From Microbacterium sp. SSM24 (GTDB taxonomy: Bacteria; Actinomycetota; Actinomycetes; Actinomycetales; Microbacteriaceae), in contig NZ_JAPDNQ010000001.1 in NCBI RefSeq assembly GCF_025989145.1, positions 806,001 through 870,000 on the forward strand: a stretch of 64,000 bases of DNA, in the 5' to 3' direction. Made by a program: the position numbers and the translations under genes. The notes below the pieces were generated by a model. It searched no databases and was not told the origin of the DNA. It saw nothing but the letters and a program-made list of their open reading frames with translations. Below are positions 1-3,453 of the stretch, piece after piece (the first letter of the stretch is position 1; each line of letters starts with the position of its first letter).

Positions 1-585
1 GGCCCCGACCGCGGTGTCGCCGACGTTCGCCGCGGCGCTCACCATCGCCTGCAGCGCTCCGACGAGATCGCCCGAGAGCATCGCCACGTACCCGAGGTTG
101 TGCCGCGCCTGCGCCTCGGCCACCGGCATCCCCGCGGCGGCGAACATCTCGGCCGCGCGACCCAGATCGTCCTCGGCGTCCTCGAGCCGGCGGTGCCGCA
201 TACGTACGAGACTGCGATTCACGCGGGTGTTGGCCTCGGCGACGGGATCGTCGGCGAGCGCCTCGATGGCGCGCGTGAGCCATCGCTCGGCATCGTCCAA
301 GCGCCCCGCTTCCGTGGCGAGCGCTCCCAGCTGGCCGGCCAGGATCGCGACCGTGTGATCGGTCAGCCCGCCACCCGCGAGCGCCTCGCGGCAGATCCGC
401 TCAGCCTCGGCCACGTGACCCGTGCGCGCCAGGACGTACGCGCGCGTCCCCGTGATGCGCGCCCGCAGATTGGCCTCCTCGGCCGCCGCAGCGGCGCGGT
501 CGAGCACCTCGCCGGCCGCGTCGAACCGGCCGCGGTTGACGAGGTCCACGGCCTGCTGATGGAGATCATCCGCCGAGCCGGTCAC
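1..585 (-). CDS. TPR-repeat protein, 3' part outside window
   Basis: The gene runs off the left edge; 195 residues are visible. They form a helical solenoid of tetratricopeptide-like repeats of about 34-40 residues, for example 'GRFDAAGEVLDRAAAAAEEA', 'GRLDDAERWLTRAIEALADD' and 'RRLEDAEDDLGRAAEMFAAA'. TPR domains bind other proteins. The GTG start at 585 lies 16 nt after the stop of the subtilisin gene, and a purine-rich AGGGGA abuts it, so the genes are probably co-transcribed and translationally close. In similar actinobacterial operons the TPR protein next to a subtilisin often carries a C-terminal caspase-like CHAT domain; this is recalled family context, and the part that would show it is outside the window. 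No signal peptide is visible, so it is probably cytoplasmic. Confidence 0.75.
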   Translation of the reverse strand, partial: MTGSADDLHQQAVDLVNRGRFDAAGEVLDRAAAAAEEANLRARITGTRAYVLARTGHVAEAERICREALAGGGLTDHTVAILAGQLGALATEAGRLDDAERWLTRAIEALADDPVAEANTRVNRSLVRMRHRRLEDAEDDLGRAAEMFAAAGMPVAEAQARHNLGYVAMLSGDLVGALQAMVSAAANVGDTAVGA

Positions 586-601
586 TCCCCTATCTTGGCG
601 G

Positions 602-2227
602 CTACGGCCTCGGCGTGAACTCCAGCTTCTTCGCAGCCTCCCGCAGCGCCTTCTTTCGCTCGTCCGGCGTCTTGAGCGATCCGTGCATCAGATCGGCCGC
701 GATCGCCTGCGCGAGCCGCCCGGCGATGTACGGCGCCGCGAACGACGTGCCGCTCCAGATCGCGAAGCCGCCGCGCCAGTCGTCGGGGTCGAGGCTCTGC
801 CGCGGCAGGGTCCCGGTGATCCCGGCCATGTCGCTGAGGTCGTCGCGCGTTCCGGCCTGGATACCGCCGACGAAGCCGGGCGACGTGCTGAACACCGCGA
901 CCCCGGGCGCGTATGTCCGCACCCAGTCGCCGACGTTGCTGAACAGTGCCACCGATCGGTCGTTGGGATTGAGCGCGCCGACCGACACGTGCGGCGCGGC
1001 GTCCACGAGCTCCTCCATGGCCGCCGGGGCGCCCGGGTAGGCCCAGAGCGCGGCGGGGAACGCAGGACGCTCGGTCGAGTCGTTCCCGGCGGAGCAGACG
1101 ATCGCGCACCCCAGCGCGCGCGCCTCCTCGAGGAGAGCGCCCAGGGTGGCGTCGTAGTGCTCGTCGTCGGGGGTCTCGTGGTAGTACCCGAGAGAGATGT
1201 TCATCACGTCGATGGCCTTGCCCTGGGGGTGCTTCATCCACTCCACGAGCAGGCGCACCGCCTCGAGGAAGTCGCCCTCGAGCACCGTCCCCTGGCTGTT
1301 GGCGACGCGGACGGCGACGATCTCGGCGTCGGGGCACAGCTGGTGCACGACGCCCGCGACGAACGTGCCGTGACCGGCCGCCTCATCGAGGAAGCCGTCG
1401 AGCGGTCCCGCCTGATCGGGGTAGACCTCGGGGTTCGTGTCGGGATCGGTGAGTCCGATCGGACCCGCCGGCGACATCGGGTCGCGCATCACGACGGGGG
1501 CCTTGAGCCACGCGTGGTCGCCGCAGCCCGTGTCGAGCACGGCCACCACGGGGCGACGGCCCTTCACGTGGGCATCGGAGGTCCGAGCGGGACGGGGGCC
1601 GACGTACGTGACGATCTCACGGCCGCCGCTGCCGGGTTCGGCGTACGCGTCGGGCCCCGGAGCGTTCGTGCGTCCATACGGGTTCGTCCGACCGAACGGG
1701 TTCGTGCGACCGAACGGGTTGGTGCGACCGAACGGGTTCGTGCGGCCGTACGGTCCCAGCGAGAGCACGTGGTCCAGGCCCACGCCGCGCGGCAGCGTCG
1801 GACGGGCCGCCTTGAGCAGGCGCCACGCGTCGACCGGCGGCACGGGCTGATCGTCGGCGTCCTCCTTCGGATCCTGCAGGATGTCGGCACGGAACAGCGG
1901 CGGCACCCGGCCCGCCTCGCGATCGGCGCCTGCCCCGCGCTCCGCCTCGCCGAGATCGATGCGACCGCCGTGGAGCGGGCGCACGCGCACCGACCAGCCG
2001 AACTGACGCGCCGCGACGTTGAGCTCCCGCTCGACGCGGCCGAGCTCCTCGGCCGCGCTCACCAGCAGGTGCTTCGGGGCGTAGTCGGTCGGATAGGCCG
2101 TGATCCCGGGCTCGGGCTCGATCGACGGATCGAGACCCACGCCGAGCGGCTTGGTGGCCTCGTATCGGCTCTGCCATGTCTGGTTCGGCGGGCGCCGCGG
2201 GGGGTTGTCAGGCGTCTGGTCCGACAT
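602..2227 (-). CDS. Cytoplasmic S8 (subtilisin) serine protease with hexapeptide repeats
   Basis: A 541-residue subtilase. The catalytic triad is visible: Asp232 in 'VVAVLDTGCGD', His286 in 'GHGTFVAGVVH' and Ser495 in 'SGTSFAAPYIAG', with oxyanion Asn382 in 'CSAGNDS'. There is no signal peptide or membrane segment, so it should act inside the cell, unlike most secreted subtilisins. Residues 1-157 are an N-terminal region of unknown fold; residues 161-190 are five copies of GRTNP(F/Y) just before the catalytic domain. This region could be a processing or docking linker. The gene is third in an operon after a sigma factor and a small protein, and is followed by a TPR protein. Family and triad are certain; its substrate is unknown. 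A regulated proteolytic signalling role is inferred from context only. Confidence 0.93.
   Translation of the reverse strand: MSDQTPDNPPRRPPNQTWQSRYEATKPLGVGLDPSIEPEPGITAYPTDYAPKHLLVSAAEELGRVERELNVAARQFGWSVRVRPLHGGRIDLGEAERGAGADREAGRVPPLFRADILQDPKEDADDQPVPPVDAWRLLKAARPTLPRGVGLDHVLSLGPYGRTNPFGRTNPFGRTNPFGRTNPYGRTNAPGPDAYAEPGSGGREIVTYVGPRPARTSDAHVKGRRPVVAVLDTGCGDHAWLKAPVVMRDPMSPAGPIGLTDPDTNPEVYPDQAGPLDGFLDEAAGHGTFVAGVVHQLCPDAEIVAVRVANSQGTVLEGDFLEAVRLLVEWMKHPQGKAIDVMNISLGYYHETPDDEHYDATLGALLEEARALGCAIVCSAGNDSTERPAFPAALWAYPGAPAAMEELVDAAPHVSVGALNPNDRSVALFSNVGDWVRTYAPGVAVFSTSPGFVGGIQAGTRDDLSDMAGITGTLPRQSLDPDDWRGGFAIWSGTSFAAPYIAGRLAQAIAADLMHGSLKTPDERKKALREAAKKLEFTPRP
1658..1747 (-). repeat. Five tandem 18-nt units encoding GRTNPF
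   Basis: Five in-frame 18-nt units encode GRTNPF, GRTNPF, GRTNPF, GRTNPY, GRTNAP (residues 161-190 of the subtilisin). The units are nearly identical at DNA level, so copy number could change by slippage without breaking the frame. Confidence 0.9.
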
Positions 2228-2278
2228 GCACTGCTCCTCTCAGGGCGGAGCCGCGCCCAGTCGCGGCATCCGTCGTCA

Positions 2279-2746
2279 TCACACCTCGAACTGCGGCGTC
2301 TGGAAGTCGCGCAGCTCCCCGGTGGCATCCTTCACGACCAGGCGCAGTCGCGCGACCCCCGGCGTGACCTCTTCGAAGGCGAAGCGGCCGTGCTCACCGG
2401 GCTCGGCGGTCCACTCGCGGTCATCCTGCACCAGGCGGATCGCAAGGGCTGAGGCATCCACCCAGCCGTCGACGCGGCGTCCGCCGCCCTCGGTGCCCGA
2501 CAGGTGCAGCAGCACGCTCGTGGTCCCGTCGCTGAACTGCAGCGTGGATGTCTCGGTCTCGCTGCGCACCGCACCCAGCGCCTCCTCCACGAGGGTCAGC
2601 AGCGCGTACTCGCGCGACAGATCCTCGACGGCGACGGCGGCGACCATCTGGTCGACCAGATCGGCGGGCATCGGATCGACGTCCTCCCACATCCGGCGCA
2701 TGCGTGCGAAGAGGGCCGCGTCCGCGGCGAAGTCCTCAGTCTCCAT
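2279..2746 (-). CDS. Small unknown protein between sigma factor and subtilisin
   Basis: 155 residues. The N-terminal half (about 1-70) is predicted helical and acidic ('FARMRRMWEDVDPMPADLVD'). The C-terminal half (about 70-155) looks like a small beta-sandwich ('RLRLVVKDATGELRDFQTPQ'), similar to carboxypeptidase-regulatory-like or Ig-like modules. The ATG at 2746 lies inside the end of the sigma gene (11-nt overlap) and follows CAGGAGACG as ribosome site, so the two are translationally coupled. Position right after a sigma factor is where an anti-sigma factor is often found, but no zinc-binding motif or membrane segment is visible. Function is not known; a partner or regulator of the sigma factor or the protease is an inference. 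Confidence 0.8.
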   Translation of the reverse strand: METEDFAADAALFARMRRMWEDVDPMPADLVDQMVAAVAVEDLSREYALLTLVEEALGAVRSETETSTLQFSDGTTSVLLHLSGTEGGGRRVDGWVDASALAIRLVQDDREWTAEPGEHGRFAFEEVTPGVARLRLVVKDATGELRDFQTPQFEV

Positions 2747-3362
2747 CGTCGTCTCCTGACCATCCGTCGCCTTCGAGTACGGCGCGGAGCTTGGCGAGAC
2801 AGCGCTGGCGGGTCGGCCCGATGGACCCGATGGGCATCGCCAGATCCTGGGCGATGCGCGCATAGTCGGGTCGTTCCTCGAACGCGACGATCCGCAGCAG
2901 GCGCTGGCATCGTTCGTTGAGCGTCGCCACCGATGTCCACAGGCGACGGGATTCGTCGTCTGTCGCGGCGGTCTGCTCGGCGGATTCGTGGACGGGCAGA
3001 TGGGGTTCGAGAGACTCGGCCTCGGTCGCATCGGCTCTGCGGTGCTGCTTGCCGACGCGCCACGCCTCACGGCGCGCGCACATCGTCAGCCAGCCCGAGA
3101 CCGCCTGCGGGTCGAGGATCGTCTCATGACGGCGCACCAGCGTCAGCCACGTCGTCTGCACGACGTCCTGAGCGAGCGCGGCATCGAGACCGTACGCCCG
3201 CACGACGTGCCACAGGGGCGGCGTCATGAGGCGCACGAGCTCGTCCATGGCGCGGCTCTCGCCTTCGCGCCACCGCACGAAAAGTGCGGCGGCACGCTCC
3301 CACCGCGCCGGCTCGACGGAGTCGGCGCGGGCGTCGGGGCGCGCACGCGTCATAGGGCCCAT
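2736..3362 (-). CDS. ECF-type RNA polymerase sigma factor
   Basis: About 208 residues. Sigma region 2 is visible around 'AMDELVRLMTPPLWHVVRAY' to 'DVVQTTWLTLVRRHETILDP', and region 4 with its helix-turn-helix near the C-terminus ('RIAQDLAMPIGSIGPTRQRC'). Length and two-domain layout fit extracytoplasmic-function sigma factors. It is first in the operon sigma / small protein / subtilisin / TPR protein, and probably directs transcription of its own operon. The start is uncertain: ATG at 3362 was chosen and ATG at 3353 is equally possible; neither has a strong ribosome site. It is transcribed divergently from the amidotransferase gene. Confidence 0.85.
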   Translation of the reverse strand: MGPMTRARPDARADSVEPARWERAAALFVRWREGESRAMDELVRLMTPPLWHVVRAYGLDAALAQDVVQTTWLTLVRRHETILDPQAVSGWLTMCARREAWRVGKQHRRADATEAESLEPHLPVHESAEQTAATDDESRRLWTSVATLNERCQRLLRIVAFEERPDYARIAQDLAMPIGSIGPTRQRCLAKLRAVLEGDGWSGDDDGD

Positions 3363-3453
3363 TGTGTCCACACCAGACAGGAGTGCGATAGTGCGGGACT
3401 GATACACGCCGTCATGAGGTTTTCGCAAGATCGCACGATCGGATGCCGCCGCC

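Follow-up and report, generated by a model that had tools for sequence, protein, structure and literature searches.

For the extracytoplasmic function (ECF) sigma factors of group ECF54, proteolytic control without an anti-sigma factor has been proposed, and carboxypeptidase, subtilase and CHAT proteins are conserved in the gene context, as outlined in a 2022 review (PMC8999054). In CASP (type III-E CRISPR Csx29/Csx30/CASP-sigma), a protease with tetratricopeptide repeats (TPR) and a CHAT domain cleaves the inhibitor of an ECF sigma factor, and the model given in that report is that cleavage relieves the sigma factor (PMC10028731). In the fungal allorecognition pair HET-Q1/HET-Q2, the S8 protease HET-Q2 cuts after Phe (P1). 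Here we analyzed a four-gene operon on the minus strand of Microbacterium sp. SSM24, which runs from an ECF sigma factor through a 155-aa protein and an S8 subtilisin to a TPR-CHAT protein and lies at the left edge of the window, a stretch of 64,000 nucleotides (bases 806001-870000 of contig C1, NZ_JAPDNQ010000001.1, in a 3.4-Mb genome; Table 1).

The gene association is already known from the ECF54 context, where a mainly actinobacterial ECF sigma factor likewise stands with subtilase, carboxypeptidase and CHAT genes (PMC8999054). We treat the operon as ECF54-like by gene context alone, because of its subtilase/CHAT context and of the CarboxypepD_reg matches among relatives of the 155-aa protein, the carboxypeptidase part resting on these weak matches in 9/55 relatives. 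The features that we report below (repeat array, allele exchange, promoter, split loci) are not mentioned in section 3.3 of that review. The CASP locus also unites a TPR-CHAT protease, an inhibitor and an ECF sigma factor, but its description names no subtilisin and gives Csx30 a length of 565 aa, against 155 aa for the small protein here (PMC10028731); the present operon adds a second, zymogenic protease with a junction that varies together with the TPR part. No CRISPR effector was recognized near the operon by eye in the lists of open reading frames, and no CRISPR family search was made. Among the HET-Q2 relatives, the Q2-L proteins carry TPR, or CHAT replacing the subtilase (PMC10989679), whereas the operon genes here include no gasdermin and the likely output is a sigma factor. 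In contrast to pro-subtilisins such as pro-Tk-subtilisin and PCSK9, the subtilisin has no signal peptide and bears a multi-copy repeat at its junction. The novelty lies in this repeat array and in the allele exchange, neither of which was in the original prediction made from the window, which also missed the promoter at 3361-3406; no published account of the array junction, the S8/TPR allele exchange or the leaderless promoter turned up in the literature searched, with the ECF54 primary papers outside it. A bare ECF54 context note thus becomes testable biology, with a homogeneous, lineage-specific peptide array as zymogen activation junction and a gene pair that differs as allele classes at one fixed locus.

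The original prediction had described four same-strand genes with short spacing, an intact subtilisin triad without signal peptide and a TPR gene starting 16 nucleotides past it. These observations stand: the sigma and 155-aa genes overlap by 11 nucleotides, gaps of 51 and 16 nucleotides follow, the TPR gene starts at 585, D232/H286/S495 are present together with N382, and a simple 19-residue hydropathy scan of the subtilisin gave no signal-peptide-like hydrophobic segment. The triad and the PF00082 match make the protein an S8 subtilase, one of five S8 matches in the genome, and the catalytic residues are kept in 96/96 aligned S8 proteins (L150, with a broken frame, left out). The PDB sequence search returned 48 distinct subtilase sequences for P0003 (S8) and none at E<=0.01 for P0001 and P0004; a PDB search with the S8 profile gave none at 1e-20, which says little because this threshold is very strict. 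In the AlphaFold2 model (predicted local distance difference test, pLDDT, 81.5), a b-a-b-a-b-a-b domain at about residues 44-156 is followed by disorder at 163-204 and then by the catalytic domain. Alignment of the model with VIA-align to PCSK9, pro-Tk-subtilisin and pro-subtilisin E covered 290-308 residues, starting at 44-53 in most rows, compared with 214-235 residues where the alignment began only at residue 207; what the pro-forms add is the pro-domain. This pro-domain has no Pfam pro-domain match and is recognized by fold only; as modeled, the protein resembles a pro-subtilisin-type zymogen with its N-terminal pro-domain fold.

The disordered junction is occupied by a tandem array with units GRTNPF (three times), GRTNPY and GRTN, seen at the DNA level at 1664-1753 as five copies with an 18-nucleotide period; its exact run of 17 matches compares with at most 6 in 2000 shuffles. 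An array is present in 76/76 complete Microbacterium loci, with units of 5-7 aa, 2.7-9 copies (exact run) and 30 different units. This set omits loci of the genus that lack a gene or have a TPR-CHAT <=700 aa or an S8 <=450 aa, and retains L147, whose TPR-CHAT frame is broken, and L016, whose TPR-CHAT is truncated at the stretch end. The unit is nearly identical within one protein and differs between lineages, and the residue following Pro is F, Y or H in 75/76 (50, 16 and 9, respectively) and V once. Pro plus an aromatic residue ahead of the cut is a classic subtilisin preference. The other four loci of the family (L017-L020) also bear arrays, as do L098, L099, L101 and L103 beyond the family, with imperfect copies in L100. 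An exact repeat with two or more copies occurs in 94 of the 120 homologous proteins listed, and in one of these 94 (TSDS) it is of another type; the remaining 26 include several with imperfect arrays and five fragments <400 aa.

Adjacent copies in the 76 arrays (352 copies; every protein had an array and none was dropped) show 609 synonymous versus 60 replacement codon differences, when about 497 replacements would be expected under random change; arrays were delimited by the exact run and extended to copies at least 50% alike, which somewhat favours synonymous differences. Third positions hold 608/628 nucleotide differences in the exact runs, and 58/76 arrays are without any replacement. Because synonymous differences far exceed replacements, we conclude that selection keeps the copies alike while the unit differs between lineages.

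The subtilisin and the TPR part change together as divergent alleles behind nearly invariant sigma and small genes. Over the 76 loci, distances correlate at r 0.86 for sigma and small protein and 0.45 for S8 and TPR-CHAT, compared with 0.13 for sigma and S8. Among 48 Microbacterium pairs with sigma plus small protein at least 93% identical, which share members, belong to few species clusters and cannot be counted as independent events, S8 is <60% identical in 37 and TPR (1-500) in 32, all of these with S8 <60%, and the CHAT end (701-816) is <60% in 0; S8 <60% with TPR at least 70% occurs in one pair, the reverse in none, and both are at least 70% in five. Counted by locus, 23/76 have a neighbor with regulators at least 90% identical, S8 to that neighbor being <60% in 10 and at least 75% in 13. 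L118 and L123 have regulators 98%, S8 48%, TPR 45% and CHAT end 95% identical, and for the window locus and L050 the figures are 93%, 56%, 59% and 91%. At the DNA level, flanks and regulators of four discordant pairs are about 82-95% identical (77% downstream in one), and S8 and TPR give partial matches at 65-81%. Similarity of the repeat unit goes with that of the S8 catalytic part (partial r 0.56) and of the TPR (0.34), and not with that of sigma (-0.01) or the small protein (0.00).

Duplicated parts were seen at two loci. L140 carries a tandem pair of divergent S8 genes (L140:3763-6992) with units TRTNPF and GKTNPF, and L127 has, downstream of an intact TPR-CHAT gene, the orphan 3' part of a second one (L127:182-1321; 380 open codons), which shares no more than 65% identity with any CHAT of the set. 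Both are possible leftovers of exchange.

Canonical TPR positions facing the concave groove are 2, 5, 6, 9, 12 and 13. We compared unit properties with TPR positions after removing overall S8, TPR-CHAT and sigma similarity, in a test designed after the top covarying columns of the S8-P1 comparison were known. The concave positions covary with the unit above other TPR positions, and among 34 registers theirs ranks first for the mean and second for the tail fraction; in cluster permutations 0/300 reach the mean and 5% the tail fraction. In a control with S8 columns, the maximum of four targets was reached by 0.3% of 1000 random quadruples, and the share of the 230 columns reaching the groove value was 1.3% for P2', 4.8% for the period, 32% for P1', 51% for the whole unit and 92% for P1. 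Covariation with P1 was seen for some S8 columns, strongest (0.46) at residue 204 next to the array, and we claim no placement in the subtilisin pocket. The covariation is suggestive of a TPR groove that reads the repeat array. If it does, the loci would supply naturally occurring orthogonal protease-recognition pairs and could help to show what these CHAT/subtilase modules sense.

We propose, at about even confidence, a cytoplasmic proteolytic switch with positive feedback, in which the TPR-CHAT protein licenses the array-jointed subtilisin to relieve the sigma factor. The co-translated beta-sandwich protein would hold or tune the sigma factor, which would transcribe the operon that encodes it, using a dedicated promoter. 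The subtilisin would be made as a zymogen, its pro-subtilisin-type N-terminal domain tied to the catalytic domain by the disordered array, each unit of which may offer a Pro-aromatic (mostly NP[F/Y/H]) subtilisin-like or CHAT-like site for cleavage or docking. The TPR superhelix would recognize the array allele-specifically and, on a signal, license or cleave it; the activated protease(s) would lift inhibition of the sigma factor, which would re-activate the operon. Subtilisin and TPR would have diversified and been swapped together as matching partners, in the manner of recognition systems in conflict, and the role of the switch may be defence or self-recognition.

In its favour stand the gene linkage and paired co-occurrence described below, the pro-subtilisin architecture with the array at the junction, the homogeneity of the units, the joint change of S8 and TPR, the groove covariation, the conserved promoter and the CASP precedent. 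Several observations weigh against it. P2' and the period carry most of the groove signal, and P1 (-0.019), P1' (0.007) and the whole unit (0.000) show none; in plain rank tests p was 0.14-0.80 for the five targets taken singly and 0.03 when the maximum over targets was used. The unit-TPR correlation is only 0.04 given S8 and the other proteins, and TPR-CHATs that go with one and the same unit, PYGSTN, are only 59-61% alike (49-56% where one of the two is the frame-broken L147). Sigma and TPR-CHAT distances correlate at r 0.34, because the CHAT end follows the regulators while the TPR follows S8. No array was found in the S8 of L105, L107 and L111-L116 or of the unlinked loci, and S8 is missing nearby in L064 and L157 (within the fetched stretch) and L117 (where the contig ends); because of these array-less and S8-less loci, the module as such does not depend on the array. 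The candidate cleavage site in the array is read from sequence, and the published ECF54 proposal contains no anti-sigma factor (PMC8999054).

In keeping with that proposal, the proteases could keep sigma off by direct degradation with no anti-sigma factor, the small protein being an adaptor or substrate tag. This has been proposed in print from gene context (PMC8999054), and the small protein, P0002, has no Pfam or NCBIfam family at E<=1, but at each of the 105 distinct loci, whose discovery itself went through the small protein or S8, sigma adjoins it, and the two co-diverge and stay paired where the proteases are unlinked, like dedicated partners; we consider direct degradation unlikely. The operon could also be a conflict system, anti-phage or other, whose TPR/S8 alleles diversify to counter foreign inhibitors or triggers and whose freed protease leads to growth arrest or death; this is possible, and we lean against it only somewhat. 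It would fit the wholesale S8 and TPR differences behind near-identical regulators, the orphan CHAT fragment of L127, the tandem second S8 of L140 and the control of fungal cell death by related protease types (HET-Q2, CHAT), as described in PMC10989679. Yet no recognizable toxin or pore is found among the four genes (flanking genes were not searched against family libraries), PADLOC matches are weak only, and in the five pairs of close relatives compared the flanks align, which places the locus at a fixed site in these pairs. We consider it unlikely that array and TPR act as matched lock and key in an allorecognition-like locus for bacterial self/non-self, similar to the het genes of fungi, where a mismatched or foreign partner or trigger would activate the two-protease relay and the sigma factor.

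Two further explanations concern the array itself. Its disorder in the model and its exact-run copy number of 2.7 to 9 are what a selectively neutral flexible spacer from replication slippage would show; the copies differ, though, at third positions with the amino acids unchanged, and the synonymous/replacement ratio rejects the neutral linker, to which we give hardly any credence. Identical tandem short units, lineage-specific and with a conserved Pro-aromatic core, also recall a precursor of short peptides excised as signals, but the four genes include no exporter or receptor and the array sits at the pro-domain junction inside a protease without signal peptide, which makes a peptide precursor very improbable.

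Gene linkage supports the proposed switch with positive feedback. The 155-aa protein occurs in 111/198 genomes of the genus (G219, E 9.7e-4, is borderline), in 6/150 genomes of the family by single-sequence query and in 68/296 of the class by profile. Surroundings were analyzed for 82/111 genus matches, L069 included, and 20 class matches. In L069 (in G219, the weakest match) none of the four gene profiles matched, and it is excluded from the 108 loci analyzed and included in the 111. These 108 represent 105 distinct loci, since L007, L008 and L009 duplicate L131, L129 and L121; they were found through the 155-aa protein (the three duplicates through S8). Sigma and the 155-aa protein are neighbors among the four genes in all 108. 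With S for sigma, A for the small gene, P for S8, C for TPR-CHAT and a prime for the opposite strand, the orders are SAPC 85, C'PSA 5, SACP 4, SA 4, PSAC 3, SAC 3 and one each of ASPC, SAP'C, CSA and SACP'. The original prediction hinged on a CHAT domain in the TPR protein once extended left of position 1 and on conserved linkage of the four genes. Both were found: PF12770 is present (78.4 bits against a cut-off of 24), and all four genes are together in 97/105 distinct actinobacterial loci, a figure that includes genes truncated where a stretch or contig ends as well as two frame-broken loci (L147, L150) and counts a TPR-only match 6 kb away in L110 as absent.

We examined twelve class genomes in which the sigma/small pair is unlinked to the proteases. 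In the profile search each holds one full-length TPR-CHAT, then a wide gap to weak TPR-only matches, and an S8 gene adjoins the TPR-CHAT in 12/12. The surroundings were seen in five (L104, L106, L108-L110), and in the other seven the parts are on different contigs or >1.8 Mb apart. Because all 12 hold both pairs, sigma plus small protein and S8 plus TPR-CHAT represent two units that go together. L186, L189, L190 and L191 have two adjacent S8 genes beside the unlinked TPR-CHAT, with a conserved non-repeated CPATEP segment containing a cysteine as linker.

Table 1. Features of the operon in the window.
Feature	Coordinates	Strand	Remarks
ECF sigma factor	2736..3353	minus	Start 3353 (probably leaderless) preferred over annotated 3362; PF04542, TIGR02937
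Composite promoter TGTATCA-N12-CGnnCTC-N14-CACAAT	3361..3406	minus	Ends 7 nt upstream of start codon
155-aa partner protein	2279..2746	minus	Low-confidence N-terminal helices and C-terminal beta sandwich (CarboxypepD_reg-like)
S8 subtilisin, predicted zymogen, cytoplasmic, 541 aa	602..2227	minus	PF00082 (Peptidase_S8), E 2.7e-23
Subtilisin pro-domain, aa 44-156	1760..2098	minus	Model fold
Tandem array GRTNPF/GRTNPY, aa 161-190	1658..1747	minus	Disordered junction of pro-domain and catalytic domain
Subtilisin catalytic domain	683..1564	minus	PF00082, model
TPR-CHAT protein, first 195 of 816 codons	1..585	minus	Continues left to G000:C1:804135; whole gene L006:6135-8585

The sigma factor matches TIGR02937 (E 2.1e-15, 56.7 bits against a cut-off of 42.9, residues 38-194) and Pfam Sigma70_r2 (PF04542, E 3.5e-8), Pfam listing region 2 only; with sigma-70 regions 2 and 4 only and about 200 aa it has the build of an ECF sigma factor. 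A TGTATCA box and a CA[C/G]AAT-type box 7 nucleotides upstream of ATG/GTG, at near-fixed spacing, precede sigma in 75/76 Microbacterium loci, the exception being L066, where the small gene comes first. The start-proximal box is CA[C/G]AAT in 66/75 loci and has G/A first in 9; of the 89 loci bearing GTATCA, 69 have the middle box CGnnC[T/C]C, and GTATCA is absent in 16/105 loci, all but one of them outside the genus. Because the -10-like box sits 7 nucleotides before the start codon, 3353 is the more likely start, and the layout suggests a leaderless sigma mRNA. The full layout has one match in the genome, even with 3 mismatches, and the reversed control pattern likewise one, so no wider regulon with this exact layout was seen. 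The original prediction, which we find partly supported, had placed the module under its own sigma factor: a separate promoter does precede the sigma gene, and we infer that the sigma factor itself would read it.

In the model of the 155-aa protein, block pLDDT is 76-95 across the sandwich and 49-60 across the helices. CarboxypepD_reg is a regulatory fold and not an enzyme; its family PF13620 was matched at E<=0.01 (best E 0.0005) in the nine scanned relatives mentioned above and not in P0002. Foldseek returned generic beta sandwiches, with one match at E<=0.001, and the PDB sequence search three chance-level matches. The protein may act as an anti-sigma factor. Its C-terminal tail TPxFE[VIL] (window 2282-2299) is kept in many relatives linked to repeat-bearing S8 genes and is a possible C-terminal docking motif.

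The TPR-CHAT protein runs past the window edge to a full length of 816 aa and has no second match in the genome at E<=0.001. His695/Cys735 are intact, which together with the PF12770 match identifies a CHAT protease. Across relatives His is kept in 96/99 and Cys in 96/99, the misses falling in genes that are frame-broken or truncated at the end of a stretch or contig (L110 and L150, with broken frames, are omitted from the count). In one Microbacterium locus, about 4 kb are inserted between S8 and TPR-CHAT (L016:9737-13863).

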